A DNA stretch of 36,334 nucleotides, from positions 1-36,334 of the forward strand of contig NZ_JAETGO010000049.1 of the NCBI RefSeq assembly GCF_016765695.1, in the 5' to 3' direction. A program made the translations under genes and the position numbers. The DNA comes from Sporosalibacterium faouarense. Lineage in GTDB: Bacteria > Bacillota > Clostridia > Tissierellales > VENL01. Under the pieces are notes generated by a model. It did not search any database. It saw only the letters and a list, made by a program, of their open reading frames with translations, and was not told the origin of the DNA. This document shows positions 745-26,138 of the stretch, piece after piece; within the stretch, counting starts at the first letter, position 1, and the number at the start of each line of letters is the position of its first letter.

Positions 745-783
745 TATATTTCTCATCCTCTCAACCAAAATAACAAGAACATT

Positions 784-1452
784 TTATCCATTAGTTTCTG
801 GTATCATTCCAATCACAGGTAATTCCAGATATTTTTCTATATCATTAGATGATTTAACCGTATTATCCATGTATTCCATTAAAAATACTAAAAATATACT
901 AATCATCCCACCTAATACTCCTGCTATAGCCATATTCAGAATAGGATTAGGCTTTACTGGAGCTGTAGGGACTTCAGCTTTATCTATAACTTGGATATTT
1001 TCTATATGCATTATATTTGCTATATGTTTTTTTAACACCACTGCAATCTCATCTGCAATTTTAGATATAAGCTCAGGCTCCCTTCCATTGACACTTATCT
1101 TAATTATCTCAGTGTCTTTCACTGAACTGACACTTATCATATTTATTAAATCTTTATGTGTCATATTCAAGCCCATATTATTTATTACTTCATTTGTAAC
1201 TATCCTGCTCTTTGTAATTTCACCATATGTAGAAACTAAGCTCTGATTTAACCTAACTTCATTTATATCTAACTTATATTCACTACCATTAGGTTGTCCT
1301 ATCATAAGAGTAGTGTATGTCTCATACTGTGACTCAAGGACAAAAAAACTCACTACCCCACTGGCAGCTACTGTTATAACTGTTATTAGAATAATAAGCC
1401 AAGCCTTTCTCCATATAATTTGCATTAACTCACGTAATTCTATTTCTTCCAT
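784..1452 (-). CDS. CpsC/Wzz-family polysaccharide co-polymerase and kinase activator
   Basis: Membrane protein of about 222 residues, the partner of the CpsD-type kinase encoded directly downstream. A hydrophobic span near residues 17-40 is followed by an extracytoplasmic domain. Then comes the proline-rich motif PTAPVKPNPILN and a second span near 170-190, leaving a short cytoplasmic tail that would activate the kinase. This is the short Gram-positive form of the Wzz family, with no long coiled coil. GGAGGTG at 1459-1465 places the start at ATG 1452. The in-frame ATG at 1467 overlaps this site and is unlikely to be used. The first 50 residues are clearly paralogous to the long Wzz protein at 20874-22238. 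Confidence 0.92.
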   Translation of the reverse strand: MEEIELRELMQIIWRKAWLIILITVITVAASGVVSFFVLESQYETYTTLMIGQPNGSEYKLDINEVRLNQSLVSTYGEITKSRIVTNEVINNMGLNMTHKDLINMISVSSVKDTEIIKISVNGREPELISKIADEIAVVLKKHIANIMHIENIQVIDKAEVPTAPVKPNPILNMAIAGVLGGMISIFLVFLMEYMDNTVKSSNDIEKYLELPVIGMIPETNG

Positions 1453-1577
1453 ATGATTCACCTCCATATTTACTATTTATATCGAATACCAATCAATAAA
1501 AATTGCATAATTCTTATAGTCCAGCATAAACTATTGGTATATACTTTATTAAGTGGTAATATAGTCCTATTTTATCA

Positions 1578-8845: not shown

Positions 8846-10093
8846 CTATTTTAGAATATGCTTATTTAAAGTCTTATCATCACACCTAGCTGTTGAAGTG
8901 AACTTACAACTTCTAATACTACCAATTATCAATCCCATTAAAATCCAAAATTTCATTTCGATTAAATATGAACTACTAACCATTAAGTGAATAAACCCTA
9001 GGCTGAGCCATATAAGTGTGATTTCACTTCTCAGAGTTTTTCTCTTAATTATGGTCTTAGTTATCAATAAAATAATCATCACTAGAAGAATAAAACCTAT
9101 TGGGATTCCAAAATTTCCTAATATTTCCAATATAATGTTGTGAGCGTATACTGCATCTCCGTTTAATACTCTACGATCACCAGCAATACCAAAGCCAATG
9201 ATCGGGTTCTGAACTATTTCATTAATCACTGTTCTATATATATAATTCCTACCACTTAAGTGAATGTTATCCTGCATGAACAAATATATAGTTCTGCTAT
9301 ATATTCCCCTGTCACTTAAAAATTGAAAAATTCTAGATATAATTTTGTCAAAATTTATCGCACTAATCATAGCTACAAATATTGCGCTAAAATATATAAA
9401 AAGCTTTTTATAACTCCCAACTTTATGACTTAATAAGAATTTCATAAATATAAAAAATACAATACCAAGAATCGCACCTCTTGATCCTAGTATTAAAATC
9501 ACCAGTATAGAAAGAGTAGTTATTAATAAACTCTTTATATTAAACCTATCAATTAGTTGATTTAAAAAAACTATCGTTGGTATTAACATGTAGTTTGCCA
9601 ATGGTCCGCTATAAGTACCAACATTTGCGCTTCCTCCAAGTGACTGTATCCCCAATATAATACCCGCTAGGAATATTATAAATGAAGATTTAATCATAAT
9701 AATTTTAAATATTTTAAGATTCCTAATACTCATGCTGAACACAAACATCGGTAGGCTCATTAAAAAAATTGGAATTATTAAACTTCTCATATAAATTTGG
9801 TTTTCAGGATACATCAAATAATGTACTCCAAAGATTATTATACTGACTAGATATACAATAATTAACTTAAACGAACTTCTCCTAATCACGCTTGGAAGTG
9901 TATATATAAACGACACTCCCACCAAAAGCTTTGAGAAAAATTGAATTCCAGTAGCTCCACTCGTGCCTATCACCCCTAAATTTATCAACAAAAAATACTG
10001 CAAGGTCAATATAACAAAAGGGGCTACCAATGCTACACTAATCTTCCTATCATCAAATTCGTCATATTTTATTTTCGGTCTTATTTTATTCAT
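8846..10093 (-). CDS. O-antigen ligase/polymerase family protein (Wzy-like)
   Basis: A membrane protein of about 415 residues with some ten to twelve hydrophobic spans. The conserved Wzy_C region reads SGRNYIYRTVINEIVQNPII, GFGIAGDR and then AHNIILEILGNFGIPIG (about residues 280-340), with the expected Arg in the loop and the His-Asn of AHN. It probably polymerises the lipid-linked repeat unit on the outer face of the membrane. GAGGA at 10099-10103 supports ATG 10093. The ATG at 10105 overlaps that site. It lies directly upstream of the MurJ-like flippase, which fits a polymerase-flippase pair. Confidence 0.88.
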   Translation of the reverse strand: MNKIRPKIKYDEFDDRKISVALVAPFVILTLQYFLLINLGVIGTSGATGIQFFSKLLVGVSFIYTLPSVIRRSSFKLIIVYLVSIIIFGVHYLMYPENQIYMRSLIIPIFLMSLPMFVFSMSIRNLKIFKIIMIKSSFIIFLAGIILGIQSLGGSANVGTYSGPLANYMLIPTIVFLNQLIDRFNIKSLLITTLSILVILILGSRGAILGIVFFIFMKFLLSHKVGSYKKLFIYFSAIFVAMISAINFDKIISRIFQFLSDRGIYSRTIYLFMQDNIHLSGRNYIYRTVINEIVQNPIIGFGIAGDRRVLNGDAVYAHNIILEILGNFGIPIGFILLVMIILLITKTIIKRKTLRSEITLIWLSLGFIHLMVSSSYLIEMKFWILMGLIIGSIRSCKFTSTARCDDKTLNKHILK

Positions 10094-10105
10094 ATGATTC
10101 CTCAT

Positions 10106-10533: not shown

Positions 10534-11853
10534 TTATAATCTCCAATAGTGATAACCTTTTTCTTCAATATGTTTCCTATCCAAAATACTTTTAACATCA
10601 ATAAGCACCTTCTCATGATTCTCAAAATCTCCGTATAAGTTATCAATATCTTCCCAACTCATTTGTTTAAAGGTATCATGAGCTACTGCTAGTACCAAGC
10701 AATCAGCATCATTTATTTCCTTAATATCTACCATATTAATACCATATTCATGTTTTGCTTCATCAGCATCAGCCTCTGGATCGACTACGATAGGTTCAAT
10801 ACCATACTCTTTAAGACTGTGAATAATATCTATTACTCTAGTGTTTCTAGTATCTGGCGTGTTTTCTTTGAATGTTAAACCTAGAACAACAACTTTAGCT
10901 TGTCTTACTACTTTGTTTGCTAATATCAATTTTTTGATTATTACATCTGCCACGAACTTACCCATACCGTCATTAATTTTTCTTCCCGATAAGATGATTT
11001 GACTATGATAACCTAGTTTTTCAGCTTCATAAACAAAATAATAAGGGTCTACACCTATACAATGTCCACCAACAAGACCTGGAGTGAAGCCAAGTGCGTT
11101 CCATTTTGTATTCATTGCTTCAACTACTTCTTTAGTATCTATTCCCATTCGATCAAATACCATTGCTAACTCATTCATGAAAGCAATGTTAATATCACGC
11201 TGGCTATTTTCAACTACTTTTGCAGCTTCTGCAACCTTTATAGATCCGGCTTTATGAACACCTACTTCTATAACTAACTCATAAATTCTAGCAATTTCAT
11301 GAAGGCTCTCATCATCCATACCTGATACAATTTTAATAATATTTTCAAGCCTATGCATCTTATCTCCAGGATTAATACGTTCAGGTGAATATCCTATTTT
11401 AAAATCTACTCCACACTTTAAACCAGATTCCTGCTCTAATATAGGAACACATATATCTTCCGTTACACCTGGATAGACAGTTGATTCGTAGACAACAATA
11501 GAACCTTTAGTTAAGTTTCGACCAACTATTCTGCTTGCTCCTTCTACTGGTGAAAGATCTGGTGTCTTATCTGAATTAATCGGTGTTGGTACTGCTACAA
11601 TATGAAATTTTGCTTCTTTAAGTTTTGTTTCATCGGAAGTAAATTCAACAGCCGTTTTCTTAATCTCATCATTTCCAACTTCATTTGTTGGGTCAATTCC
11701 AGATTTATACAAGTCGATCTTCTTTTTATTTAAATCGAATCCAATAACATTAACTTTTTTAGCAAATGCAACCGCTATTGGCATTCCAACATAACCAAGC
11801 CCTACTACTGCAATTTTCTTTTTATTATTTACAATATCCTTATATAATTTCAT
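10534..11853 (-). CDS. Nucleotide-sugar 6-dehydrogenase (WbpO/TviB-like)
   Basis: UDP-sugar dehydrogenase of about 439 residues that oxidises C6 of a UDP-N-acetylhexosamine to the uronic acid with two NAD+. Domains in order are an N-terminal NAD-binding fold with VVGLGYVGMPIAVAFAKK, a central helix region (AEAAKVVENSQRDINIAFMN), the catalytic-cysteine motif GGHCIGVDPYY (about residue 260) and a C-terminal UDP-binding fold (VVVLGLTFKENTPDTRNTR). The sequence resembles the WbpO/TviB/CapL group (UDP-GlcNAc or UDP-GalNAc) more than UDP-glucose dehydrogenases. It predicts an acidic polymer. AAAGGAAGG at 11860-11868 sets the start at ATG 11853. The longer frame to 11892 would overlap the preceding gene. 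Confidence 0.93.
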   Translation of the reverse strand: MKLYKDIVNNKKKIAVVGLGYVGMPIAVAFAKKVNVIGFDLNKKKIDLYKSGIDPTNEVGNDEIKKTAVEFTSDETKLKEAKFHIVAVPTPINSDKTPDLSPVEGASRIVGRNLTKGSIVVYESTVYPGVTEDICVPILEQESGLKCGVDFKIGYSPERINPGDKMHRLENIIKIVSGMDDESLHEIARIYELVIEVGVHKAGSIKVAEAAKVVENSQRDINIAFMNELAMVFDRMGIDTKEVVEAMNTKWNALGFTPGLVGGHCIGVDPYYFVYEAEKLGYHSQIILSGRKINDGMGKFVADVIIKKLILANKVVRQAKVVVLGLTFKENTPDTRNTRVIDIIHSLKEYGIEPIVVDPEADADEAKHEYGINMVDIKEINDADCLVLAVAHDTFKQMSWEDIDNLYGDFENHEKVLIDVKSILDRKHIEEKGYHYWRL

Positions 11854-11881
11854 ATTAAACCTTCCTTTTATTATATTGTTT

Positions 11882-12979
11882 TTAAAAATCACTTAATAAA
11901 GATTTCCATTGTGAGACTATATTATCTTTCTTCATATTTCCTGATAAGATCATAGATTTACTAGACATATTCATACGTAGATTAGGATTTCTAATCATCT
12001 CAATAATTCTATCTGCCATTTTCTCAACATCATAAGACTTTATTATAAATCCATTCATCTCATTTTCTATAAGTTCATTTGGACCGTAAGGGCAATCGAA
12101 AGCAATTACTGGAAGGTTACTTTTCTGTGCTTCAAGGATTACCATCCCAAAAGATTCACTTCTAGATGTTAAAACATAAAAGCTATAATTTTTATAGACA
12201 TCCTTCAATTTATTAGTATATCCCATCAATTTAACCTGATTTTCTAATCTGTACTTTATTATTAATTCTTGGAGATTCTCTCTTTCCTTCCCTTCACCAT
12301 ATATATGCCATTGCCAATCTGGATGATCACTTAATGCAATGCGAGCAACATCAATGGCCAAATCAAACCCTTTGATGTTCTCTAAAGCACCAGCAGATAG
12401 TATTTTTTTTGAATTTGAATTGTAGTTATTCTCTCCATTAGTTAGTTCATCAATTGTATTATAAATTTGTACTATTTTCTTTAATTTCTTATACTGTTGT
12501 AAGTAAACACTCTTAGCCTTTTTAGTAATTACGACCATTGCATCTGATTTCTCTGCTGCTATTTTTCTAATTACATACTTCAAAGAAAAAATATCTTTTT
12601 TTAATGGAATACTAGCATGGTCCCACGCAATAAGCTTGGACTTCCTATTTTCCCCAGATGCAAAATGCAAAATATAGAAAATCAATGCCGGTGCTATAAC
12701 TATATCAAATTTGTTATCATTGAAGATTCGGTTAAGTCTATAGATAATCTCAAATAACCTTAATTTCAAGTTAACTTTCTTATCAAAAATTTTGATGACT
12801 TTGACATTTTCGTTAACGTTAACAAATTCAGTATTTGATCGATCTGTCAGAGTAATTAATGTAATATCAAATTCTTTTGTTTTTGCTAATTCATTAGCTA
12901 TTAGAGCAGTTGCAGACGCAATGCCACTAATATGATGTATGCCAGTAATTACAAATGCAATACGCTTAATTAAAACCAC
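11882..12979 (-). CDS. GT4-family glycosyltransferase
   Basis: A GT-B-fold glycosyltransferase of 365 residues, presumably cytoplasmic, adding one sugar to the lipid-linked repeat unit. The N-terminal acceptor domain starts IKRIAFVITGIHHISGIASA. The C-terminal donor domain has SAGALENIKGFDLAIDVA, then SRSESFGMVILEAQ (the E-x7-E motif) and FDCPYGPNELI. Substrate cannot be read from sequence. The start shown is GTG 12979, overlapping the preceding gene by 10 bases, which suggests translational coupling. It has only a weak GAGAG upstream, so the exact start is unsure. Confidence 0.88.
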   Translation of the reverse strand: MVLIKRIAFVITGIHHISGIASATALIANELAKTKEFDITLITLTDRSNTEFVNVNENVKVIKIFDKKVNLKLRLFEIIYRLNRIFNDNKFDIVIAPALIFYILHFASGENRKSKLIAWDHASIPLKKDIFSLKYVIRKIAAEKSDAMVVITKKAKSVYLQQYKKLKKIVQIYNTIDELTNGENNYNSNSKKILSAGALENIKGFDLAIDVARIALSDHPDWQWHIYGEGKERENLQELIIKYRLENQVKLMGYTNKLKDVYKNYSFYVLTSRSESFGMVILEAQKSNLPVIAFDCPYGPNELIENEMNGFIIKSYDVEKMADRIIEMIRNPNLRMNMSSKSMILSGNMKKDNIVSQWKSLLSDF

Positions 12980-14094
12980 CTACTCTCAATCGAATTATAT
13001 ATTTTTTTATATTGTAAGGAGATTGATGTCCACTTAAATTTGTCTACTTCATCTACTGAATTTATTGATAATCGGTTATAACTATCGATAACCATTTCAA
13101 TTTTTTTAGCAATATCTTCTATATAATTTGACTGTGCAGCGTAACCAACGTCTCCATCTTTAAAATAACCATCTACACCTTGATTTTTCGTATATACAAT
13201 TGGAGTACACTGCAACAATGCCTCAATATACGATAACCCAAATGTCTCTTTATGTGACACCATTGCAAAAATATCTGCTTGCCGATATTCATGAATTAAT
13301 TCTTCTTTATTCTTTCTTGGTACTAATTCAACAAACGAATAACTTTGGAGTTCTCCTAATAATTTTTTGTAAGTGTTCTGCTTTTCTACACCACCAACAA
13401 TCCTATATTTAATATTGAATCCTTTTAAATTTAAAATTTGAATCGCTTTACAAACATTTATCTGGTTTTTGTTGTTGTTTATCCAAGCAGTTGTCAATAA
13501 TACTAGTTCATTTTTTTTATCAATTTCTTTTGGATTACTTCTATTTTCAAAATAATAATCATCAATTCCATTCGGAATGATACTAGTTTTGTTCAAAATG
13601 GTTTCTGCATATTTATCCGGAATATATTTATTAAAAAGCGTTTCTTTATGCGCTGGAGATATAAAAATAACTTTCTCTGCACTTAAAAGTATTTTAATTC
13701 CAATCTTCCTAAGATGAACCATAAATCTAAAAAATACATTTATATCAGTATTTCTGACAGTTACAATGTATGGAATTTTTTTTCTTAGATATGTTTGATA
13801 AGCTATATAACCATTTGAAAAAAGAGTATGTGCATGCAAGATATTTACATCTTTATCTGATAAATATTTTAAAAAGTCTTTAACTACCTTATTATGTTTT
13901 ATATGGAAAAAATAGCGGTCAATATTATTATAATTTAGGCTGACATCAACATAATCATCATATTTACAAGCAAATGAATTGTTGGGTCTAACAAATTTAA
14001 AGACTCGTTGTTCTACTCCTAGTTCAAATAATTTGTCAGCCAAATTCTTATAAATTGTATTACCATAATCTGAATTTATATGAATTACTTTCAT
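12970..14094 (-). CDS. GT4-family glycosyltransferase
   Basis: A 374-residue GT-B glycosyltransferase. It begins MKVIHINSDYGNTIYKNLAD. The acceptor side has NILHAHTLFSNGYIAY, followed by the linker IIPNGIDDYYF (about 190-200). The donor-binding part has the E-x7-E-type motif SHKETFGLSYIEALLQ (about 290-305) and a glycine-rich end. GAGGTAG before ATG 14094 is a good ribosome binding site. It is the middle of three consecutive GT4 genes in the repeat-unit assembly block. The donor sugar is unknown. Confidence 0.88.
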   Translation of the reverse strand: MKVIHINSDYGNTIYKNLADKLFELGVEQRVFKFVRPNNSFACKYDDYVDVSLNYNNIDRYFFHIKHNKVVKDFLKYLSDKDVNILHAHTLFSNGYIAYQTYLRKKIPYIVTVRNTDINVFFRFMVHLRKIGIKILLSAEKVIFISPAHKETLFNKYIPDKYAETILNKTSIIPNGIDDYYFENRSNPKEIDKKNELVLLTTAWINNNKNQINVCKAIQILNLKGFNIKYRIVGGVEKQNTYKKLLGELQSYSFVELVPRKNKEELIHEYRQADIFAMVSHKETFGLSYIEALLQCTPIVYTKNQGVDGYFKDGDVGYAAQSNYIEDIAKKIEMVIDSYNRLSINSVDEVDKFKWTSISLQYKKIYNSIESRWF

Positions 14095-14124
14095 TTCTCT
14101 ACCTCAAATCTATAAGCTTATTCT

Positions 14125-15372
14125 TTAGTCATGTTCCTCAATAACTTGAATTAATTCTTTGGTTAACTTTTTAAAATCAAAATTATAAGCTGCCTTTCTT
14201 GCATTTTGCCCCATCTGTTCTACTTTTTGGTCATCACTACATGCTTTGATTATTACTCTCGCTACCTCTTCAGGACTTTGCTTGGTAGCACTAACTCCGC
14301 AATTGTTCTTTTCCAGTATGCTATATCCTGTCGTATAAGTTTGTATTACACATCTACCAGCAGCTAAATATTCAAAAAACTTATTCTGACTTTGTCCATA
14401 TTTATCAAGTGAAGTGCTTGAGTTATGTAGGACATTTGCATAAGATCTTTTTAGAATTGAGGGAATCATCTTCTTCTCAACCCTACCTTTAAAAATCACA
14501 TTGTTTATCTTCTCTTTTTTACATTTCTTTTCTAACATTTCTTTTTCATCACCAGACCCATAAATTAAAAACCTAACCTGTTGATCTTTCTCTTGAATTA
14601 TTTTCGCGGCGTCTAATAAAAGCCCTAGATTATTTACTTTTCTAATGGAACCTGCGTAGACTAAGTTTTTATAGTTCTTATCCTTCAAGTCTAAATCGTC
14701 AACTTTGTATTCTTTAGAATTCTTATCAAAAGAATTGATTATTACTCCGTTACTTATGTGTTTTACTTTGTTTAAATTAATCTGTTTATCCCAACCTTGA
14801 TCTATTATATATTGACTTCCACCTTCCCAAGTCATAACAATTGAATTTGCTTTCTTATAAATCCATTTCTCGCCTTGGTATAATAACTTAGCAACCACAC
14901 TATTTTTCTTTAATGAACCATAAGCTACGATACTCTCCGGCCATAAGTCCCTAACTTCACAAATACAAGGTACACTGAGTTCTTTTGCACACCTTATGCC
15001 TGCAACTAACGTTAATGGATGTACACTTGAAGCTAAAATCACATCAGGTTTTCCATTTAATTCTGCATACCTCTTCGCAGACTTAAAAAGTCTTCTATAA
15101 AATGAAACCATATTAACTATTCTTTTTTTTCCATTACCTTTATACTTAGGTGTATTAACAAAAACAAAAGGAATATCATTCACAGAATCTGTAGAATACT
15201 GTTTTCTATTAGTATCAATATGATTATCTGAAAAATGATTTGTAGAAGCACAAAAGATTGTAGGCTTATACCCTTCTTTTATAAGATTTTCTGCAAACCA
15301 ATAATGTCTTCCAGCAAGATCAAAAAACATATTTGTCGCATAATGATTCCATATCCAAATATTCTGTCTCAT
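14125..15372 (-). CDS. GT4-family glycosyltransferase, WbuB-like
   Basis: A 415-residue glycosyltransferase of the WbuB/WcaI group. It shows the characteristic EVRDLWPESIVAYGSL (about 140-155), the hinge ISNGVIINSF, a donor domain YAGSIRKVNNLGLLLDAA, and NKFFEYLAAGRCVIQT near the end. Members often add an early sugar to a lipid-linked 4-acetamido-dideoxy sugar, which fits its place directly after the acetyltransferase and phosphoglycosyl transferase genes (inference). Its ATG overlaps the TGA of the acetyltransferase gene (ATGA, 15369-15372), and AGGAG lies upstream, so translation of the two is probably coupled. Confidence 0.9.
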   Translation of the reverse strand: MRQNIWIWNHYATNMFFDLAGRHYWFAENLIKEGYKPTIFCASTNHFSDNHIDTNRKQYSTDSVNDIPFVFVNTPKYKGNGKKRIVNMVSFYRRLFKSAKRYAELNGKPDVILASSVHPLTLVAGIRCAKELSVPCICEVRDLWPESIVAYGSLKKNSVVAKLLYQGEKWIYKKANSIVMTWEGGSQYIIDQGWDKQINLNKVKHISNGVIINSFDKNSKEYKVDDLDLKDKNYKNLVYAGSIRKVNNLGLLLDAAKIIQEKDQQVRFLIYGSGDEKEMLEKKCKKEKINNVIFKGRVEKKMIPSILKRSYANVLHNSSTSLDKYGQSQNKFFEYLAAGRCVIQTYTTGYSILEKNNCGVSATKQSPEEVARVIIKACSDDQKVEQMGQNARKAAYNFDFKKLTKELIQVIEEHD

Positions 15373-15992
15373 CTATCTACTCTCCTAGCCGGAACTCCAA
15401 TATATGTCCCAGGCACACTAATATCCTTAACCACAACAGCCCCTGCACCTACTTTGCAACGACTGCAAATGTTTACGTTATTGCTCACAATACTGCCTAT
15501 TCCTATCCAGGTTCCCTTTTCAACTCTTATAGTCCCAGCTAAGCTAGTACTAGGGGATATGTGAACATAATCTTCTATAGTATTATCGTGATCTAAACTA
15601 GCACTTGTATTGATAATACATCCTTTGCCGATTCGGCTTGAACTGTTGATTACTACTCCTGCCATTACAACAGTTCCAATACCAATTTCAACATCAGTCC
15701 CTAAAACTGCACTTGGATGAACTAAACTAACTATATTTAATCCGCCCTTTATTAACTTCTCTTGAATCTTCTCTCTCGTCGCATTGTTTCCAATAGCCAC
15801 AAAGAAATCAGCTTCACTTTTATATGTAAAAGCATCAGCAGTCCTACCTATGACTTCTAACCCCATAGATGTCTTAATAGACTCGTGATCATCGAGGAAT
15901 GCAATGCTTTGCCACCTATTCATTTTTATTGCGATGTCAGCGACAACCTTTCCTTGTCCACTGGCACCAATAATAATCAATTTGTCTTTCAT
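15369..15992 (-). CDS. Sugar N-/O-acetyltransferase, NeuD/PglD/EpsM family
   Basis: A 207-residue protein. The N-terminal Rossmann-like part begins KLIIIGASGQGKVVADIA. A left-handed beta-helix of hexapeptide repeats follows (about 95-200), containing the catalytic-histidine region SASLDHDNTIEDYVHISP and ending PGTYIGVPARRV. PglD-type enzymes acetylate UDP-4-amino-4,6-dideoxy-GlcNAc to give UDP-N,N'-diacetylbacillosamine. With the aminotransferase, dehydratase and transferase in the same locus this is the likely reaction. GAGGAGAG precedes ATG 15992. It is coupled to the next glycosyltransferase by a 4-base overlap. Confidence 0.92.
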   Translation of the reverse strand: MKDKLIIIGASGQGKVVADIAIKMNRWQSIAFLDDHESIKTSMGLEVIGRTADAFTYKSEADFFVAIGNNATREKIQEKLIKGGLNIVSLVHPSAVLGTDVEIGIGTVVMAGVVINSSSRIGKGCIINTSASLDHDNTIEDYVHISPSTSLAGTIRVEKGTWIGIGSIVSNNVNICSRCKVGAGAVVVKDISVPGTYIGVPARRVDR

Positions 15993-16040: not shown

Positions 16041-16703
16041 TTAACTGTCTGCCTTACTTCCTCTAAACGGTTCCATCGTAACTGATGTATCTGAACTGAT
16101 GCCTTCCTTAATAAATACCTTCTTTACAGTAAGAAAGATAATCTTCCAATCACCTATAAAACTAACATTATTTACGTAATCAACATCAAGATTAAACTTA
16201 TCTTCCCAACTGATGGCATTACGCCCATTGACCTGAGCATGCCCTGAAAGACCAGGTCTCACTTTATGTCTTCTCTTTTGATGCTCATTGTATAGATCCA
16301 AGTATTGAATGAGTAAAGGTCTTGGCCCAACAATACTCATATTCCCCTTTAGAATGTTAAATAGCTCTGGTAGTTCATCTAATGATGTGGACCTTAGCAT
16401 CCTACCAAACTTAGTAAGTCTCACCGAGTCTGGAAGCAGCTCACCCTTCTCATTCTTCCCATCCGTCATTGTTCTAAACTTATACATGGTGAAAAGCTTC
16501 TCATTAAGCCCAGGTCTTTTCTGCTTAAATAAGACTGGACTACCAAGCTTGAGCCTAACAAGAATCGCGATCATTATAAGCACAGGACTTAAAACGATAA
16601 TTGCCATCAAAGACAAAACGAAATCCATTGGTCTTTTAAGAAACCTTCTATATATACTTTTATTCTGTCTTACTTCATCATCTGTTTTAACTTCACTCTG
16701 CAT
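16041..16703 (-). CDS. Monotopic phosphoglycosyl transferase (PglC/EpsL type)
   Basis: A 220-residue bacterial sugar transferase of the short form. A re-entrant membrane helix (about 25-47) follows the basic stretch YRRFLKRPMDF. The catalytic Asp-Glu dyad lies in RSTSLDELPELFN (about 104-116), followed by GNMSIVGPRPLL and RPGLSGHAQVNGRN. It starts glycan assembly by moving a sugar-1-phosphate from UDP-sugar to undecaprenyl phosphate, here probably diacetylbacillosamine. AGGTGAT precedes ATG 16703. Placement between aminotransferase and acetyltransferase genes mirrors known pgl and eps clusters. The C-terminal tail (about 200-220) is divergent. Confidence 0.94.
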   Translation of the reverse strand: MQSEVKTDDEVRQNKSIYRRFLKRPMDFVLSLMAIIVLSPVLIMIAILVRLKLGSPVLFKQKRPGLNEKLFTMYKFRTMTDGKNEKGELLPDSVRLTKFGRMLRSTSLDELPELFNILKGNMSIVGPRPLLIQYLDLYNEHQKRRHKVRPGLSGHAQVNGRNAISWEDKFNLDVDYVNNVSFIGDWKIIFLTVKKVFIKEGISSDTSVTMEPFRGSKADS

Positions 16704-16729: not shown

Positions 16730-17839
16730 CTATAGTCTCTTTATAATCCTACAAATTCTCTCAAGATCTTCATCTGTCATCTTTGTATCACTTGGCAAAC
16801 ACACACCATTCTCAAAAATCTTTTCACTCACAACTCCACCAACATAATCATACTCAGCAAAGAATGGCTGCATGTGCATTGGCTTCCACACAGGTCTCGA
16901 TTCAATATTCTCAGCTTCTAAAGCTTCCATAACATCTAAAGGTCTAACTCTACCCCTCAATGTTATTACACTTAGCCAATAATTTGGATCATTCCAGTCA
17001 TTGATTGGCATGAAGTTTACACCTTCAAGTTGTCCAAGTTCTCTCTTATAAAATTCAAAAATATATTTCTTTTTAATAACCCTCTGATCTAACACCTTAA
17101 GTTGCCCTCTTCCAATGCCAGCAACAACATTGCTCATACGGTAATTAAACCCTAATTCACTATGCTGGTAGTGCCTCGCTGCATCTCTTGATTGTGTGGA
17201 CCAAAACCTAACTTTCTTAATCCTCTCTTCATCATCAGAAACAAGCATACCTCCACCTGATGTTGTGATAATCTTATTGCCATTAAAACTGAACACTCCA
17301 AATTTACCAAAGGTTCCGGTGTGCTTTCCTTTATAATAAGCCCCTAAAGACTCAGCTGCATCCTCAATGACTGTAACCTTATGTCTACTGCAAATATCCA
17401 TAATCCTATCCATATCAGCAGACAAGCCATATAAATGTACAATTAAAACAACTTTTACCTTATCACCGTACTTCCTAAAGGCTACCTCTAATTCTTTAGG
17501 ATCCATATTCCATGTTTCATAATCACTGTCGATAAAGACAGGAGTAGCGTTCTGATATATGATTGGATTGGCTGTAGCAGAAAAAGTAAGGGTTGGACAA
17601 AGTACGATATCTCCTTCACCTACTCCTGCAGCTTTAAGCGCTAAATGAATAGCGCTAGTTCCTGATGAGAGAGCAGCTGCAGCTTTAGAACCTACCTTAG
17701 TAGCCAATTCATTTTCAAACTCATTTACATTTTCCCCAAGAGGAGCAATCCAATTTGTATCAAAAGCTTCCTGTACATATTCCATCTCATAGCCTTCATC
17801 ACTCATATGGGGTGATGCTAAATATATGCGTTTACTCAT
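16730..17839 (-). CDS. PLP-dependent sugar aminotransferase (DegT/PglE/EpsN family)
   Basis: A protein of about 369 residues of the DegT/DnrJ/EryC1/StrS family. It has the N-terminal YLASPHMSDEGYEMEYVQEA, the PLP-contacting SSGTSAIHLALKAAG, IEDAAESLGA (aspartate for the pyridine nitrogen) and the Schiff-base lysine in FSFNGNKIITTSGGG (about 186). PglE-type members put an amino group on C4 of the 4-keto sugar made by the dehydratase encoded at 3440-5329. ATG 17839 has GAGG and GGAGG upstream. The ATG at 17854 is in frame, but its upstream sequence is poor. It is 26 bases upstream of the phosphoglycosyl transferase gene. Confidence 0.93.
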   Translation of the reverse strand: MSKRIYLASPHMSDEGYEMEYVQEAFDTNWIAPLGENVNEFENELATKVGSKAAAALSSGTSAIHLALKAAGVGEGDIVLCPTLTFSATANPIIYQNATPVFIDSDYETWNMDPKELEVAFRKYGDKVKVVLIVHLYGLSADMDRIMDICSRHKVTVIEDAAESLGAYYKGKHTGTFGKFGVFSFNGNKIITTSGGGMLVSDDEERIKKVRFWSTQSRDAARHYQHSELGFNYRMSNVVAGIGRGQLKVLDQRVIKKKYIFEFYKRELGQLEGVNFMPINDWNDPNYWLSVITLRGRVRPLDVMEALEAENIESRPVWKPMHMQPFFAEYDYVGGVVSEKIFENGVCLPSDTKMTDEDLERICRIIKRL

Positions 17840-17867
17840 TACCTCCAACCTCATTCCATTTTTAATC

Positions 17868-20822
17868 TTATTTTGCTTCCTTAAAAACTATTGCTTCCTC
17901 TATATCAATATAACCATCGTCATTACCATTATGTTGTAATCTTAAGTATTGACTTCCTGGAGCAATATCTGAATCAGTTTTAAAATCTAATTTTAACAGT
18001 GTCCATTCATTGTCAACATTTATCTCTTTCAACCTTGCTTGCCATGTTCTTTCAGCATTGTTATCAGTTATACCAATCTCACAGCTATCTTTTTTAATTG
18101 TTCCTTTTACCTTAATAAATAATGAGTAATTAGTATTAGGTTCAAGCTTTAACCCATAAGGATAAATCATCCCATACCTTTCTCCCTCATTAGTTATTCT
18201 TATATAGTCACTTTCATCTTGCTCCATTTGCTTATGCTTAATCTGTCCTCCATCACTATTCCATTCCCTAAGCATATCAATTTTCCCATCACCATCTATA
18301 TCCAAATCAAAATAATATGCAAAGTTCAAAGCATAGTTATTGTCAATCATATATTCACTACTATCCAAATTCTCCTTATAGAATTGAATATATCCTAACT
18401 TGTATAATAAATCTTCGTTATATCTAAGTGGTTCAATTGCCTTACTATTTATTTCCTTTATTTCCTCTTTAACCTTATATGCTTCATTAATAATCTCTCT
18501 GGCCTTATCTTTATCATTTTTTTGATTTAAATAATACTTAAAAGCACTTAGATATGCATTACTCTTTTGAAGATAATTCTCCACAATCATAGGTTGAATT
18601 TCAACAGTTTCATCTACTAAACTTAAAGCTCTATCTATATATCCTATATTTAAATAAAATGAAGCTCCTACAGCTTTTATATTGGGATTATATTTCCCAA
18701 GCTCTTGTGCCTTATCCATTTCTCTAAAAGCATCATTGATATATTTTTTATCTTTAGTCTGTTGATACATATTCTTTCCTAGTGTAGCAAAGTCTGCCCT
18801 ATATTCCGTCTTATATGGGTCAAAGAGTATTGCTTTATCAAAATATTCTATAGCTTCCTCTATATTATTTTCCTCACTAGTTTTAACTGCCTTCTGAGCT
18901 AAAGCATTTCCTATCACTAAAGAAGATGAATTGATTAATAGTAATACCAATACAATCATACTAATAACCTTTATTACCTTACTTCCATCCTTTTTGTCTT
19001 CCTTCACTTCTATATATCCTGCTAAAATACCCATTAGTCCCCACAAGATAAATGTTAGTGCTGAAAGGGATAAATCAAAGTCCATAAAAGCATGACCTAG
19101 TATTAAAACAACTGTAATAAATATTGTCACTATACTTATTTTACTTTTTTCATCTTTTAAGCTATGCCATTTTTTATATGTGTAATAAACTAACAAACAA
19201 ATCATAGCTAATAATATAAGCAATCCAACAATGCCTACTTCTATCCAAACCTGTAAGAAGTAGTTATGAGCCTGAGTACTTGTATATCCATATGATTGAT
19301 ATGAAGTATATAGTCTGCTCCAGCCTCCACCGCCAGTTCCTAAAAGGAAATAATCCTTTATAACTTTTAATCCATCTCTATAGAAAGTTAATCTTCCCTG
19401 AGCACTATTATCATTTATGTTAATACTATTAATTCTAGTTATAATAGATTCTGGAATATATTTGTATTTTAGTTTAATCTCATCAATTATAGAATCCCTT
19501 TGAGTATCAATAACCGTTGCATTATCATATGTTATAGATGTTCCTGAGTAATAGTTGTCAAAATATACTCTTATACTATTGGTTTTTTCTGTAGTTACAA
19601 ATTCCAATTGTAATTGATTCTCATCTGATTTATTTATTTGTTCTGTTTTTAATTGTTCTAAATTCCCTTTATCATCTAAACTATATACTCTAACTCTTCC
19701 TATATAGGGCTGTTCCTTACTATTTTCACCACTATAATTTACTGATAATGTATATTCTCTATTTTCTTCTATATTACCAACATTCCTATATATAGTTATC
19801 CAATTATCCTTAGTCGAATTATTGCTTAGTGTCAATGGTTCAATTTGATTAAAAGCATATAATATTCCACTACCACAGATAATAACTATTACTAATATAA
19901 ATATCAGTACTTTATTTGTACTGATTTTAATCTTATTAATTTTAGGATTAATTAACACTATAAAATATGATATTACACCCATGATTATTGCAGGTAAAAT
20001 AGACATTATCCATTGTATAAAACTATTACTATCAGCTAATTGACCGAACACCATTGCAAAACCAATGCTTATTATAGAGTTAAAGAATAAAAATATTATT
20101 AACTCTAATTTCTTTTTATTTGGTATAGCAATAATATATAGTAATAAAACAAATGGTAATATTAGCCACATTCCCCTAGAGTATGTAAGTATAAATGTAA
20201 ATAGAAGCAAGCTTGAGCTGGCTCCATATAGAATTTTATTTTCTTTATTTTCTTCTGTTATAAAAAGACCAGTAGCAATTATAAATATGGCTCCTAGAAA
20301 AGATGCCAGAGTATTAGGATACTGAAATGTAGATGCTATCCTATCTCCCATTACGGCACCATTGTAGCTCCATGTTCCAATATATGACCCGATTCCAACT
20401 ATTGAAACTCCAACTGCACTGATAATTAATGTATTGAACATCCACTTTTTATTTTTTTCATCAGTTGATAAATCCCTAGCTAATAGAAAAATAAAGAAGT
20501 AATTTGCATACTTAAGCATTTCTCCTATTGCTAGTCTAGTGTCTACTGCATAGAATATTGATATAAAGTACATAAATACAATACCTATAGCAGTTATATC
20601 TATAGGTGACTGTATTAGCTTGTACTCCCTTTTCTTATATTTAGAGCCTATCCAAATTAATGCTAAGGCAAATGATAATACATGGGTAGGCATTAGTTCT
20701 TTTTCAAAGTACATACCTCTAAAGAACGGTGGGTATGCTAATAATATACAGAATAGTACTAAAACAATATTTTCAACAGATAATAAAGTTTTTTTATTAT
20801 ATTTTGCAACTTTTGTAGGCAT
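17868..20822 (-). CDS. Large O-antigen-ligase-like protein with TPR and C-terminal beta domain
   Basis: A 984-residue membrane protein, about twice the usual ligase length. The N-terminal half has some twelve hydrophobic spans, interrupted by an extracytoplasmic beta-rich insert (about 325-455). The Wzy_C signature follows (about 475-535): GRLTFYRDGLKVIKDYFLLG, TGGGGWS and QAHNYFLQVWIEVGI. After the last spans come TPR-like helical repeats (about 640-800, e.g. NNIEEAIEYFDKAILFDPYK). The C-terminal jelly-roll-like domain (about 835-984) starts with a calcium-loop-like DIDGDGKID. Polymerase, ligase to the wall, or protein O-oligosaccharyltransferase are all possible. TPR-bearing ligase-like proteins are known in Firmicutes, but the substrate is not. 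AGGAGG precedes ATG 20822. Confidence 0.85.
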   Translation of the reverse strand: MPTKVAKYNKKTLLSVENIVLVLFCILLAYPPFFRGMYFEKELMPTHVLSFALALIWIGSKYKKREYKLIQSPIDITAIGIVFMYFISIFYAVDTRLAIGEMLKYANYFFIFLLARDLSTDEKNKKWMFNTLIISAVGVSIVGIGSYIGTWSYNGAVMGDRIASTFQYPNTLASFLGAIFIIATGLFITEENKENKILYGASSSLLLFTFILTYSRGMWLILPFVLLLYIIAIPNKKKLELIIFLFFNSIISIGFAMVFGQLADSNSFIQWIMSILPAIIMGVISYFIVLINPKINKIKISTNKVLIFILVIVIICGSGILYAFNQIEPLTLSNNSTKDNWITIYRNVGNIEENREYTLSVNYSGENSKEQPYIGRVRVYSLDDKGNLEQLKTEQINKSDENQLQLEFVTTEKTNSIRVYFDNYYSGTSITYDNATVIDTQRDSIIDEIKLKYKYIPESIITRINSININDNSAQGRLTFYRDGLKVIKDYFLLGTGGGGWSRLYTSYQSYGYTSTQAHNYFLQVWIEVGIVGLLILLAMICLLVYYTYKKWHSLKDEKSKISIVTIFITVVLILGHAFMDFDLSLSALTFILWGLMGILAGYIEVKEDKKDGSKVIKVISMIVLVLLLINSSSLVIGNALAQKAVKTSEENNIEEAIEYFDKAILFDPYKTEYRADFATLGKNMYQQTKDKKYINDAFREMDKAQELGKYNPNIKAVGASFYLNIGYIDRALSLVDETVEIQPMIVENYLQKSNAYLSAFKYYLNQKNDKDKAREIINEAYKVKEEIKEINSKAIEPLRYNEDLLYKLGYIQFYKENLDSSEYMIDNNYALNFAYYFDLDIDGDGKIDMLREWNSDGGQIKHKQMEQDESDYIRITNEGERYGMIYPYGLKLEPNTNYSLFIKVKGTIKKDSCEIGITDNNAERTWQARLKEINVDNEWTLLKLDFKTDSDIAPGSQYLRLQHNGNDDGYIDIEEAIVFKEAK

Positions 20823-20873: not shown

Positions 20874-22238
20874 TTAAGCTTCAGCTGAGGTCTTCCAATA
20901 ATGTCTAAAGAAAGCTATAAATACTCCTAGCATTACTCCAAGAACTCCTCCTATTGCTAGATTAAGCACCTTGTTTGGACTTACTGGATTTTTAGGAACT
21001 ATGGATTTAGAAACTATAGTTATACTCGACTCTCCTACCTCTGTGGCTTCTGCTATTCTAGTAGCTTCATATTTATCTAAGAATGAATCATAGGTGCTTT
21101 GAGATAGATTTACCTTTCTTTGAATTAACTTTTCATTATGCTCTTTATCTGCTAATTCTACTTGAAGACTTTCTAACTCTTTCTTAACATCATTGATCTT
21201 ATCTTCTAGATTTTCCTTTGTCCTATTATAACTAAATTCTATATTTTCTTTTTCTTGCTTTACCCTTGCAGAATCTATTTCATATTGATCTACTTTCTCT
21301 TTAAGAGTTAAGTAAGTAGGGTTTATTTCTTCACTTTCCATTTTTATATCTGATATATCCTTTGTAGATGAGTTTGTCTCTTCCTTCACTATATCAGAAA
21401 GAGTTGAATCATCTGTAATTGACTTCTCGGTGGTAAGCTTTTCCGGCGTATTACTTAATTGAACCCTAGCACTTTGTAATTCTGCTGATATTTTATTTTC
21501 TTCCATTTCTTTATCTAAAAGTTCATCTTTATAATCTATCTCTTCTCTTGACAATCTATCTTTATAGCTATTTAGTTCACTTAGTTTTGAACCCACTTCT
21601 GCTCTAAGCTCATCTACTCCTCTAGGCTGAGCTAAAAACTCTTTTAACTCTAATAAAGCTTCATCCAACTTAGTCTTTTCCACCTCAAGCTGAGAATTTA
21701 TAAAGCTTGAATTCTGTGAAGCTTTATTCTTAGCTAAGTCAGTTATAAAGTATGTGAAGTTCTCAGTCACTGTATTAGCGATTTTTGCTGCCAATTCTGG
21801 ATCTGTATGACTAGCCTTAACGATTATCAAATTTGTATCTGCTATAGTTTGTAGACTTATCATATTAGCTAGGCTATCTACTGTTATATCTTTTTCAGCT
21901 AAATTTAGCTCCTCAATGGTTTTTAACAGTATCTGTGAATTTTTTATCTGCTCCTTATAGGTTTGAAGAGTCATTATTGGATATGATGAAAATGAATTTA
22001 AAATCCCATCTATGTTTTCAGATTGGATATCCATATTAGATAATTTATCGGTTGCTAAAGAAGCCATCATTGTTGTTTTAGCTTCATATTTTGGCTCTAT
22101 TATAAAAAAACTAAAAACAGCCGAAGCTAGTACACATATAACGGTTATTATTGCGATCATTTTCCATCCATCAAGTAAGGTTTCAATTAACTCTCTTAAA
22201 CTTATTTCATCATAATCTCTCTGATTTATTTGCTCCAT
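20874..22238 (-). CDS. Wzz/GumC-family chain-length regulator with long coiled coil
   Basis: First gene of the polysaccharide operon. A 454-residue protein with a membrane span at about 28-50 and a Wzz domain. A long charged coiled coil follows (about 180-400, rich in Glu/Lys/Leu/Ser), interrupted by a Ser/Thr-rich patch. Then come the proline motif VPKNPVSPNKVLNLA and a second span (about 425-446), leaving a short basic tail. It lacks a fused kinase domain; the CpsD-type kinase is encoded at the far end of the locus. It is paralogous to the short CpsC-like protein (ISLRELIETL against IELRELMQII). AGGAGGAG precedes ATG 22238. Confidence 0.93.
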   Translation of the reverse strand: MEQINQRDYDEISLRELIETLLDGWKMIAIITVICVLASAVFSFFIIEPKYEAKTTMMASLATDKLSNMDIQSENIDGILNSFSSYPIMTLQTYKEQIKNSQILLKTIEELNLAEKDITVDSLANMISLQTIADTNLIIVKASHTDPELAAKIANTVTENFTYFITDLAKNKASQNSSFINSQLEVEKTKLDEALLELKEFLAQPRGVDELRAEVGSKLSELNSYKDRLSREEIDYKDELLDKEMEENKISAELQSARVQLSNTPEKLTTEKSITDDSTLSDIVKEETNSSTKDISDIKMESEEINPTYLTLKEKVDQYEIDSARVKQEKENIEFSYNRTKENLEDKINDVKKELESLQVELADKEHNEKLIQRKVNLSQSTYDSFLDKYEATRIAEATEVGESSITIVSKSIVPKNPVSPNKVLNLAIGGVLGVMLGVFIAFFRHYWKTSAEA

Positions 22239-23698: not shown

Positions 23699-23812
23699 TA
23701 TTTCTAGTAATAAAATGATAAAATTGCAACTCGGATGAAATCTTATATGAATTTATTTAAACTATATTATTTAATTTACTAAGTTAAATGATTGACATAT
23801 AAAATTCTCTAA

Positions 23813-23846
23813 AAAATAACCTGGAGAACTATCTCCAGGTTATTTT
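23813..23846. terminator. Bidirectional terminator between yibE/F-like and SLH genes
   Basis: A perfect 15-bp stem, AAAATAACCTGGAGA (23813-23827) against its complement (23832-23846), closes on the 4-base loop ACTA. The minus strand reads into TTATTTTTT, a good T-tract for the SLH-protein gene, which ends 10 bases before it. The plus strand reads TTATTTTAATT for the YibE/F gene. Confidence 0.9.
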
Positions 23847-23856
23847 AATTAGTATC

Positions 23857-26073
23857 TTATATTTCATCAAGTAAATCTAGTAGCCTATATATAACTACTG
23901 CTGATTGGGCTCTAGTTGCTTTTTCTTGAGGTCCGAATGTTCCATCTCCTAGGCCTTTGATTAGCCCCTTATTTGCAGCTAAGGTTACTTCTTCCTTAGC
24001 CCAGTCTGAAATTTCATCTTTATCATTAAAGCCTAAATCTTTTACTGTATATATTTCTTCTGGCTTTACATATTTTAGTGCTCTAATCAACATTACAGCC
24101 ATTTGCTCTCTGGTTATTTCTCCATTTGGATTGAATTTACCGTCATGTCCTGTTACTATTCCTAAACTAGCAGCTATTTCAACTGGCTCTTGATACCAGT
24201 CTCCCTGGTTAACGTCGCTAAAGTTTACACTGTTATCATCCATCTCTAAATCTAATGCTTCTACTATAAGCTTAGCAAAGGCTGCTCTTGTAATATTAGC
24301 TCTTGGAGCATAACTTTCTTCGTCTATTCCATTAATTATATGTCTTGCTGACAGGACTTCTATTTGTCTTTGAGCCCAAGATATATCTGCTATGTCATTG
24401 AACGTTCTTCTATATTCAATTGCAGTATATTTGCTGAAATGGTCTACAATAAACTCTATCTCTCCATCTTTAGTCACCCTACCACCTATATACTCCCAAA
24501 TCTGTAACGCCTCATTATAGTAGTAGATTCCTAATCTCTGTGGATCTATTACTTTACTTGGATCGTACTCCATTGTGATTGTAAGTGGTTTATTAACTTC
24601 TACATTTTGAGTAGTCTCTCCTAATATACTGGTAATACTAAAGTCAAATATATATGCTGCAGGATGAAAATCATCTCCTAGCTGAGATATAATATTTTCT
24701 TTTTCATCTTCACTTAACTTCTTAATATTAAATGATAATTGTGATTCTTGCTGAGCTTTTAATGAATCTGGCTCTATTACTATACTTACATCGTCGACTT
24801 TTATTTCTAATGCTGTATTATTTTCACTTCCTAATTTTAAAAGCTTTGAGCTCATATTCACCGATGTTTGACTAGAGTTTGAGTCCGTTGATGCATCAAT
24901 TGTTACTTTTCCATTGCTATTATCTTGTATTTGATCCATAACTCCATTATTGTCTACAACAAAGTTTGTAGTTATATTGCCTTGTGAGTCAGTAGTTATT
25001 GTTGCTGTCCCCTGTTGGGTAACTACTTTTTCTTCCTCCTGATTTGATTCTTCAGGTTCTTGGGATTTATCAGAGTTAGAATCTTTTGGATCTGTTGGAC
25101 TTGGTGTATGTCCTCCAGTAGAACGTTTTTCAACAGTTACATTAAATGTTCCACTTATGTCTCCAATACTTGCAGTTATTACTACACTTCCTTTTCCTTT
25201 ACCAGTTACCAATCCAGAACTACTAACTGTTGCTATACTGTCATCTGAACTTGACCATATAATATTTGATAGCTCTTGATTTGATGCATCAGAACCATCA
25301 CTCATCTTACCGTCAACTGTTAACTGTATAGTGTTATTTACCTTTATTTTATTCTTATTAGCTGTGATTGATAGACTTTCTAGCTCAATGTTTATATCTT
25401 CATTCCTTATATTAAAGTCTACTATCTTCTCTGCTTCATAGCATTTAAGCTCTATATGATATGTTCCAGTCTTAGCGGTTTCAGACAGTCTAAACTTAAC
25501 ATTAAATCTCCCTTCACTATTGGTTGTATATTGTTCAATATCGTATATTGCCTTACCGTCGTCATTTTTTACAACCATAGTTACTGGTGCATTTGAAAGC
25601 GGATTTTCATCAAGATATATTCTTCCTGTTCCTGTTATATACTCATCAATGTCATAATCTTCTTTAGTTAAGTTAAATTCCATAGTATGAACTTTATTTG
25701 TATTATCTTCACTTACGCTAAAATTTACTGTCTTTTCTGCCTCATAGGATTTAAGTTCAATATAGTATGTTCCATCTTTTGCTGATTCTGACATTCTAAA
25801 TTTGATACTGAATTCCCCTTCACTATTAGTTTTGTATTGTTCAATATCATATATTGCTTTTCCACTATCATTTCTTACAACCATAGTCACCGGTGAGTTT
25901 GAAAGGGGTGAACCATTGAAATATACAGTCCCTGTTCCCATTATATATTCATCAATGCTATAGTCTGTTTTGTCTAAACTAAATTCCATGGTATGATTTC
26001 CATCTGCAAAGGTTGGAACTCCAGCACTTAGAATCATTACTGTTAATAATAAATAAGCTAGTATCTTCTTCAT
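23857..26073 (-). CDS. SLH-anchored surface protein with duplicated N-terminal domain and Big_2 domain
   Basis: A 738-residue exported protein. The signal peptide is about residues 1-24 (KKILAYLLLTVMILSAG, then PTFADG). Two near-identical beta domains of about 102 residues follow (about 29-130 and 131-228), each starting HTMEF and sharing SPVTMVV/APVTMVV and AIYDIEQY. Next is a bacterial Ig-like Big_2 domain (about 232-318, with WSSSDDSIATVSSSGLVTGK). After a Pro/Ser/Glu linker (about 320-350) comes a beta-rich region, then three SLH domains (about 557-738; RANITRAAFAKLIVEAL, GEITREQMAVMLIRAL, KATRAQSAVVIYRLL). SLH domains bind pyruvylated wall polysaccharide. AGGAGGAGGAG precedes ATG 26073. 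It lies downstream of the 1724-residue gene across a hairpin. Confidence 0.92.
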   Translation of the reverse strand: MKKILAYLLLTVMILSAGVPTFADGNHTMEFSLDKTDYSIDEYIMGTGTVYFNGSPLSNSPVTMVVRNDSGKAIYDIEQYKTNSEGEFSIKFRMSESAKDGTYYIELKSYEAEKTVNFSVSEDNTNKVHTMEFNLTKEDYDIDEYITGTGRIYLDENPLSNAPVTMVVKNDDGKAIYDIEQYTTNSEGRFNVKFRLSETAKTGTYHIELKCYEAEKIVDFNIRNEDINIELESLSITANKNKIKVNNTIQLTVDGKMSDGSDASNQELSNIIWSSSDDSIATVSSSGLVTGKGKGSVVITASIGDISGTFNVTVEKRSTGGHTPSPTDPKDSNSDKSQEPEESNQEEEKVVTQQGTATITTDSQGNITTNFVVDNNGVMDQIQDNSNGKVTIDASTDSNSSQTSVNMSSKLLKLGSENNTALEIKVDDVSIVIEPDSLKAQQESQLSFNIKKLSEDEKENIISQLGDDFHPAAYIFDFSITSILGETTQNVEVNKPLTITMEYDPSKVIDPQRLGIYYYNEALQIWEYIGGRVTKDGEIEFIVDHFSKYTAIEYRRTFNDIADISWAQRQIEVLSARHIINGIDEESYAPRANITRAAFAKLIVEALDLEMDDNSVNFSDVNQGDWYQEPVEIAASLGIVTGHDGKFNPNGEITREQMAVMLIRALKYVKPEEIYTVKDLGFNDKDEISDWAKEEVTLAANKGLIKGLGDGTFGPQEKATRAQSAVVIYRLLDLLDEI
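25390..25990 (-). repeat. Tandem coding repeat (two ~306-bp units) in the SLH protein gene
   Basis: Two consecutive units of about 102 codons encode the duplicated N-terminal domains. The DNA is also similar (for example the codons for AIYDIEQY and YEAEK recur in phase), so the duplication is fairly recent or is kept similar by recombination. Boundaries are approximate and were set from the HTMEF starts. Confidence 0.75.
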
Positions 26074-26112
26074 TTCTCCTCCTCCTATCCATCTATTTAG
26101 TATAATAGTTTA

Positions 26113-26137
26113 GTGAAAAGGGACAAGCCCTTTTCAC
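26113..26137. terminator. Hairpin between the two surface-protein genes
   Basis: A 10-bp perfect stem, GTGAAAAGGG (26113-26122) and CCCTTTTCAC (26128-26137), with loop ACAAG begins one base beyond the stop codon of the 1724-residue gene. The following minus-strand sequence has no strong T-tract (ACTAAACTATTATAC). Partial termination or mRNA protection is as likely as full termination. A TATACT-like -10 for the SLH gene lies just after it. Confidence 0.6.
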
Positions 26138-26138
26138 C

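Follow-up and report, generated by a model that had tools for sequence, protein, structure and literature searches.

Three studied systems come nearest to the protein described here, which has 984 residues and is encoded in a 36,334-nucleotide stretch of Sporosalibacterium faouarense (contig NZ_JAETGO010000049.1; the window, hereafter): WsfB, WsaB, and Orf19, all predicted or mutant-supported glycan ligases of surface-layer (S-layer) proteins. In the accessible parts of the cited reports, WsfB of Paenibacillus alvei is a putative S-layer O-oligosaccharyltransferase combining Wzy_C with C-terminal tetratricopeptide repeats (TPRs), and WsaB of Geobacillus stearothermophilus is a putative ligase from a locus with rml genes and the Wzm/Wzt exporter, without TPRs of its own and with a separate TPR gene upstream (PMC2943079). 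The orf19 mutant of Clostridioides difficile Ox247 lost the glycan of the S-layer protein SlpA, with incomplete complementation, and the Orf19 locus includes rml genes and an ATP-binding cassette (ABC) exporter (PMC6254364); S-layer systems with ABC exporters are thus described for both G. stearothermophilus (PMC2943079) and C. difficile (PMC6254364). For PglL, residues R224, R298, and H349 are reported as common to WaaL and Q178, N180, G316, G318, H400, E404, and P406 as its own (PMC3643930), and EmbC requires for its activity an outside subdomain that resembles a carbohydrate-binding module (CBM) and contributes to binding of the acceptor (PMC3044687). In the accessible text of the open-licence PMC literature, we found no description of a Wzy_C protein joined to carbohydrate-binding domains.

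Like WsfB, which belongs to an S-layer glycan locus, the window's protein has Wzy_C followed by C-terminal TPRs, here recognized by fold; unlike WsfB, for which the accessible text mentions no CBM (PMC2943079), it has a C-terminal CBM_4_9 domain and a CBM-like insert. Many shorter relatives resemble WsaB in being Wzy_C ligases of rml and Wzm/Wzt loci, and family loci share with Orf19 a ligase gene beside rml genes and an ABC exporter. The window itself has a MurJ/Wzy/Wzz-type gene set, unlike the rml and Wzm/Wzt locus of G. stearothermophilus, and we therefore propose that its protein would work like an S-layer oligosaccharyltransferase, not that it is a member of that group. In our best reading the chemistry is likely ordinary and the build unusual, a variant of the WaaL/O-oligosaccharyltransferase kind. 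With slightly better than even confidence, we take the protein for an en bloc ligase of the Wzy_C/WaaL fold that passes a glycan linked to undecaprenyl diphosphate to an acceptor, most likely a surface-protein hydroxyl, in the manner of an S-layer-type O-oligosaccharyltransferase. The gene and its parts are the following:

17868..20822, minus strand: ligase gene, 984 aa, with Wzy_C/WaaL-fold core, CBM-like insert, TPR, and C-terminal CBM_4_9 (Pfam, model, fold search)
19464..19847, minus strand: insert domain, residues 326-453, a second CBM-like jelly roll in a loop predicted to face outward, immediately ahead of the catalytic loop (own model, fold searches)
18441..18923, minus strand: TPR region, residues about 634-794 (model, fold search)
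18276..18302, minus strand: DxDxDG loop DIDGDGKID, residues 841-849 (motif)
17871..18269, minus strand: C-terminal CBM_4_9 domain, residues about 852-984 (Pfam)

Probable ligase core and predicted active site

The first-pass annotation had described a ligase-like protein of 984 residues built from a Wzy_C core, a beta-rich insert in the membrane part, TPR-like repeats, and a C-terminal carbohydrate-binding-like domain, and all of these parts were recovered. The open reading frame (ORF) is real, lies on the minus strand (17868-20822), and gives 984 residues counted from an ATG with AGGAGG six bases on its 5' side; our ORF caller starts at the first start codon, and lengths may be slightly overlong. 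Pfam Wzy_C matched at 1.1e-13 with 51.7 bits, over the cut-off of 31.7, with the best stretch at 468-538, and was found at E 0.01 in all 42 family proteins scanned, the window's included. The AlphaFold2 model of the whole protein, built with 12 sequences, had a mean predicted local distance difference test score (pLDDT) of 78.4 and a predicted template modeling score (pTM) of 0.65, with pLDDT below 50 in the linker before the CBM (821-885) and in parts of the catalytic loop (467-476 and 512-518). Searched with VIA, this model retrieved the WaaL ligase 7tpg first (Z 21.7, root-mean-square deviation [rmsd] 4.4, 372 of 403 residues, model residues 13-605), at a clear distance from the next rows, which are TPR proteins; such proteins also fill most rows of the Foldseek list.

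Relatives came from a scan of GTDB genomes that gave 133, the best 80 of which were retained, at 78 loci. We aligned 100 distinct proteins, including the window's own, after excluding cut frames, proteins lacking either the N-terminal core or a TPR match, the duplicate of the window (L103), and identical cores. Q167, N170, S215, R477, G495, G497, H519, and D581 are present in all 100, R216 and H577 in 99, and R463 in 94, so that the WaaL fold occurs together with conserved arginines and histidine. A profile of the catalytic half had 7tpg as its best PDB row, at an E of 0.14 that is not significant alone, and this alignment, weak by itself, places R477 on WaaL R265 and H519 on the AHN histidine. 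From motif and alignment, R477, R216, and H519 are the residues expected to hold the diphosphate and act in catalysis. The resemblance to WaaL thus comprises the fold of the membrane core and an equivalent arginine and histidine; unlike the protein studied here, WaaL (7tpg, a 403-residue chain) has neither TPR nor CBM. Lipid A-core, the acceptor of WaaL, is not expected in these cells. Two steps agree with those given for PglL, the 18 residues of R477-G495 with R298-G316 and the 4 of H577-D581 with H400-E404, whereas the protein has Q-x-x-N instead of Q-x-N and an aspartate where PglL has E404, and several other spacings differ (PMC3643930).

Model helices and lysine-rich stretches (61-72, 119-130, 190-196, 233-238, 296-304, 547-560, and 606-618) suggest that the N terminus is inside and that P32-G36, Q167/N170, S215-R216, R463-H519, H577-D581, the insert, the TPR, and the CBM are all outside. 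This arrangement would bring all added domains onto the same face as the conserved polar residues, beside the active site.

Insert, repeats, and C-terminal module

Modeled alone with 48 sequences, the insert (326-453) folded into nine strands with a pLDDT of 95.8 and a pTM of 0.89. CBM16 modules were its best Foldseek matches (2zez, E 1.4e-5; 2zey, TM 0.65), followed closely by a hyaluronan-binding module and CBM4-2, and VIA gave the porphyran-binding module 8xmz (Z 11.2, rmsd 2.4, 101 residues) and CBM16 2zey (Z 10.3, rmsd 3.0, 107 residues). The same lists include beta-sandwiches of phage tailspike, meprin, and insecticidal toxin, and several entries are tied within Z 1. Pfam CBM_4_9 scored 21.2 bits on the window's insert (E 3.9e-4), under the cut-off of 25.9, and we therefore name the domain CBM-like only, by fold; at E 1, CBM_4_9 matched 11 of 48 inserts, and a search of PDB sequences with the insert profile found nothing convincing. 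As modeled, the insert is a CBM-like jelly roll nearest to CBM16 and CBM4.

The C-terminal domain matched CBM_4_9 over the cut-off (7.6e-11, residues 852-954, 43 bits against 25.9). Pfam at E 0.01 detected it in 12 of the 42 scanned proteins, 26 of which bear the domain by our own profile. That the insert and this module are copies of one domain was considered; HHalign gave probabilities of only 11 and 40, so a common origin is not demonstrated. Directly before the module stands the loop DIDGDGKID (841-849). The pattern D.[DN].[DN]G..[DN] was found in 25 of 53 tails bearing the CBM as against 0 of 47 without it (the uncertain protein of L054 among the latter) and in 7 of 2650 shuffled tails, and was absent outside the tail of the same 53 proteins; aspartates 1 and 9 of the loop are retained in 52 and 50 of the 53. 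The loop is of a type that binds calcium, in agreement with the "calcium-dependent" of the first-pass annotation. The TPR region (residues about 635-828) is clear by fold, with 5fzq_B at Z 16.0 and rmsd 2.1 over 105 residues in VIA. No Pfam TPR family matched the window's protein at E 0.01 and PDB sequences matched the region weakly (E 0.025), while TPR_8 was found in 30 of the 42 scanned proteins.

Both CBM-like domains might instead serve for docking or as scaffold, for example to Wzz or to an acceptor protein, with no sugar bound, which would be compatible with any reading of the enzyme. No tryptophan is strongly kept (23 and 20 of 48 at two positions of the insert, 32 of 53 at one of the tail), and the fold matches of the insert include the non-CBM sandwiches of meprin and toxins. 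Yet carbohydrate-binding modules are the best Foldseek rows, and in such modules the residues that make contact differ from sugar to sugar. We consider a docking role possible, with chances somewhat below even.

Among the 100 proteins, 52 have both insert and C-terminal CBM (the long form), 40 have neither (the short form), 6 have the insert only, 1 has the CBM only, and 1 is uncertain, its frame in L054 ending at 809 aa while the tblastn match continues beyond, and was not counted for the CBM. The two halves of the core are separated by 128-159 residues where the insert is present and by 3-57 where it is absent, and the tail measures 161-199 residues with the CBM and 13-103 without; as these lengths do not overlap, the domain classes are clean. 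The added domains do not look like chance, since the C-terminal one is kept in 53 and the insert in 59 of the 100 proteins. On the tree, each of the two requires five changes. An unbreakable pair of insert and CBM was ruled out by the six insert-only proteins, all of one clade, and the CBM-only protein of L065. The clade (L115-L118, L120, and L121; family f39) comprises proteins of 804-831 aa with the CBM-like insert and without the C-terminal CBM. Some long forms (L025, L027-L032) and short forms (L067, L068, L070, L076) share a place downstream of flagellar rod genes and fabZ.

By their record titles, the relatives belong to Clostridia and other Bacillota, and 43 of 291 genomes of the window's class, its own included, had family matches at 1e-30; a search of plasmids with the window's protein gave no match. 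Two loci titled otherwise, L030 ("Lutibacter sp. B2") and L075 (an archaeal bin), carry members close to clostridial ones, and their titles are perhaps wrong.

Gene company and the question of polymerization

The window's locus contains, besides the ligase, the following genes:

79..1467, minus strand: CpsC-type (Wzz, GNVR) and CpsD-type (P-loop ATPase) pair (family match)
3440..5329, minus strand: PglF/CapD-type nucleotide-sugar dehydratase, Polysacc_synt_2 (family match)
7268..8827, minus strand: MurJ/MatE-family flippase candidate (family match)
8846..10105, minus strand: ordinary Wzy_C polymerase candidate, 419 aa (Pfam)
10534..11892, minus strand: TviB-like nucleotide-sugar dehydrogenase (family match)
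11882..15372, minus strand: three glycosyltransferases of family 4 (GT4) type (family match)
15369..15992, minus strand: PglD/NeuD-type acetyltransferase (family match)
16041..16703, minus strand: PglC-type sugar-phosphate transferase, Bac_transf, 220 aa (family match)
16730..17854, minus strand: DegT/LegC-type aminotransferase, 13 bases downstream of the ligase (family match)
20874..22238, minus strand: Wzz/GNVR chain-length protein, 454 aa, 51 bases upstream of the ligase (Pfam)
23857..26073, minus strand: exported protein with three S-layer homology (SLH) repeats, a possible acceptor (Pfam)

As these gene families suggest, PglC would begin the glycan with a diNAcBac-like sugar, the GT4 enzymes would lengthen it, the MurJ-type protein would flip it, and the separate 419-aa Wzy would polymerize it under Wzz/CpsCD control. 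On the outside of the membrane, the ligase would take the finished undecaprenyl-diphosphate-linked glycan and transfer it to the acceptor, most probably the hydroxyl of a side chain in a surface protein that has been exported. The TPR and both CBM-like domains, predicted to lie outside near the active site, would most probably keep hold of either the long glycan or the acceptor. The second ordinary Wzy of the first-pass annotation is this 419-aa protein (8846-10105). With the CpsC/CpsD-type pair at the far end, the locus holds two Wzz-family and two Wzy_C proteins; two more Wzy_C proteins of about 410 aa are found elsewhere in the genome (G000 C39 and C60). A 198-aa protein at 2152-2748, within the glycan locus, has an AbiEi antitoxin-type N-terminal match (7.2e-6).

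We counted adjoining Wzz genes for the 78 of the 100 proteins with 1 kb on both sides and Wzm/Wzt, PglC, and SLH genes for the 53 with 7 kb downstream. Wzz adjoins the ligase in 32 of the 45 long loci, 4 of the 27 short ones, and 2 of the 5 insert-only ones, while Wzm and Wzt are nearby in 3 of 27 long, 12 of 25 short, and the one CBM-only locus, L135 (G009) being one further long-form locus with both. PglC, for which fixed co-occurrence was checked, is common rather than fixed, being present in 17 of the 27 long loci and 2 of the 25 short ones. Fisher values that ignore relatedness were 6e-6 (Wzz) and 0.005 (ABC), and tree-aware independent-pair tests of the gene links yielded 2 and 3 starred pairs, too few for significance. 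Our Wzz call misses genes behind a small intervening ORF (L009, seen in L137) and loci where a CpsC-CpsD pair stands instead, as it does directly upstream of the ligase in L045, L047, and L049; our PglF_CapD profile is loose and also catches RmlB and RmlD. Pfam bore out proteins of the RmlA, RmlB, RmlC, and RmlD types, the exporter families ABC2_membrane and ABC_tran plus Wzt_C in L067, and components of a transporter in L077 and L084. We looked for nine partner genes and saw none of them in the long locus L053 or, with some short flanks, in the short loci L081, L085, L089, L092, L094, L095, L100, and L101; L094, L100, and L101 are Moorella short forms of 831-838 aa without sought glycan genes in the stretch covered.

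These counts bear on whether the protein could be a Wzy polymerase for a long polymer, with Wzz as its partner and the CBM arms as a processivity clamp. Wzy polymerases belong to the same superfamily, the 32 adjoining Wzz genes of long loci suit a polymerase too, and 5 of 9 long-form genomes, one with a contig ending there, have no second Wzy_C near the ligase. Of 10 polytopic neighbors scanned, 2 matched Wzy_C over and 1 under the cut-off, 1 was a flippase, 1 PMT-like, and 5 matched no Pfam family, which would leave room for this reading. However, a chain for an ABC exporter is finished inside, as described for the S-layer systems of G. stearothermophilus (PMC2943079) and C. difficile (PMC6254364), and a Wzy_C protein there therefore has no polymer to build. 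Family members, long forms included, sit in such loci, and no adjacent Wzz was found in the three long ones, one of which is cut 319 bases upstream. In the stretch covered, no other ORF with at least 8 hydrophobic segments occurs in 9 of 12 short (the exceptions, with a further polytopic ORF, being L015, L016, and L086) and all 3 long ABC loci, by a crude count in which the window's Wzy scores 9 and MurJ 11. In the window the protein is not the sole Wzy_C of its locus, and elsewhere the picture is mixed: a separate Wzy_C lies near the long-form ligase in 4 of 9 genomes (the window's, G001, G011, and, under the cut-off, G013) and near the ligase in L038, L043, and, under the cut-off, L061. The ABC-exporter loci together with the separate Wzy of the window argue for ligation, and we regard a polymerase as distinctly unlikely.

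A wider proposal is that the modular family serves both export routes, Wzm/Wzt or Wzy/Wzz, and that a calcium-loaded, lectin-like clamp of two CBMs, the first ahead of the catalytic loop and the second behind the TPR, mainly for long Wzy polymers, would hold or measure the chain before its attachment to a surface protein. This we hold to be rather doubtful.

Possible acceptors on the cell surface

The annotated exported SLH proteins near the ligase proved to be one: 23857-26073 has three SLH repeats, while the larger exported protein of 1724 aa (26139-31313), with LTD, OB-fold, and DUF3604 matches, has no SLH match at E 0.01. The SLH gene lies 3 kb upstream of the ligase and is separated from it by Wzz and a YibE/F gene; the region between fabZ and Wzz (22580-31313) holds this plus-strand YibE/F gene, the SLH protein, and the 1724-aa protein. 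A fixed co-occurrence with SLH proteins was not borne out. Our own SLH profile, loose enough to match an SLH-less protein in L054, found an SLH gene in the stretch covered in 11 of the 27 long loci and 10 of the 25 short ones, and in L025-L031 and L138 (L139 being the same place as L025) fabZ, Wzz, and ligase directly follow one another with no SLH gene among them. Because near relatives have these three genes side by side, the window's SLH, LTD, and YibE/F genes seem to have been added. Among the genes flagged by our profile, L099 left aside, a Pfam-confirmed SLH protein directly adjoins the ligase in 8 of 78 loci; with 43 SLH domain matches in the 4.12 Mb of the window's genome, adjacency by chance should be rare, but several of the eight are close kin. 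In L048 (3918-9569) and L062 (13076-17374), subtilase-type proteins with SLH repeats stand directly beside the ligase.

The first-pass annotation had offered an oligosaccharyltransferase or a wall ligase. Its architecture and a ligase rather than a polymerase are supported, and the wall ligase is the less favored. Such an enzyme would join a new wall or secondary cell-wall polymer to a wall glycan acceptor held by the CBM arms. The ligase fold and conserved sites fit, the CBM-like domains could bind wall glycan, and the CBM-like subdomain of EmbC helps to bind a glycan acceptor (PMC3044687), but the S-layer systems studied use, in the accessible reports, protein acceptors (PMC2943079, PMC6254364). 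In addition, the window's genome has two LytR-CpsA-Psr genes elsewhere, and such genes were present in 12 of 12 genomes searched. LytR-CpsA-Psr proteins usually attach wall glycopolymers, and because their genes are present elsewhere in the genome, we judge a wall ligase unlikely.

Several points weigh against a surface-protein ligase, besides the Wzz adjacency and the five genomes already named. The acceptor cannot be read from sequence, and the window's SLH gene is not at that position in close relatives. The ABC locus L086 has a second, distant Wzy_C-like protein; insert and Wzz changed the same way in 0.7 pairs and the opposite way in 0.4 on average, which lends no support, and rmlA alone does not separate the forms, being present in 7 of the 35 long loci and 9 of the 27 short ones. 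The likeness to WsfB, WsaB, and Orf19 is one of fold, domains, and gene company. The window's protein matched only Wzy_C and CBM_4_9 at E 0.01, and the 25 families listed, out of 41, for the 42 proteins did not include PglL_A (PF15864); in the accessible text, the PglL_A model search found Gram-negative homologues only (PMC3643930).

For the surface-protein ligase that we prefer, EmbC offers an analogy as a membrane glycosyltransferase with an outside lectin-like CBM (PMC3044687), although it belongs to another class of the glycosyltransferase C fold and uses another donor and acceptor; the twin CBM-like domains may by this analogy hold the long donor chain or the acceptor.

To our knowledge, little is known of how Wzy-made polymers could be attached to surface proteins in Gram-positive cells. 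Because the family occurs naturally in a long and a short form, in some cases at one and the same chromosomal position, the roles of the added domains are testable by domain removal, and a ligase with its own glycan-holding arms would interest makers of glycoconjugates.

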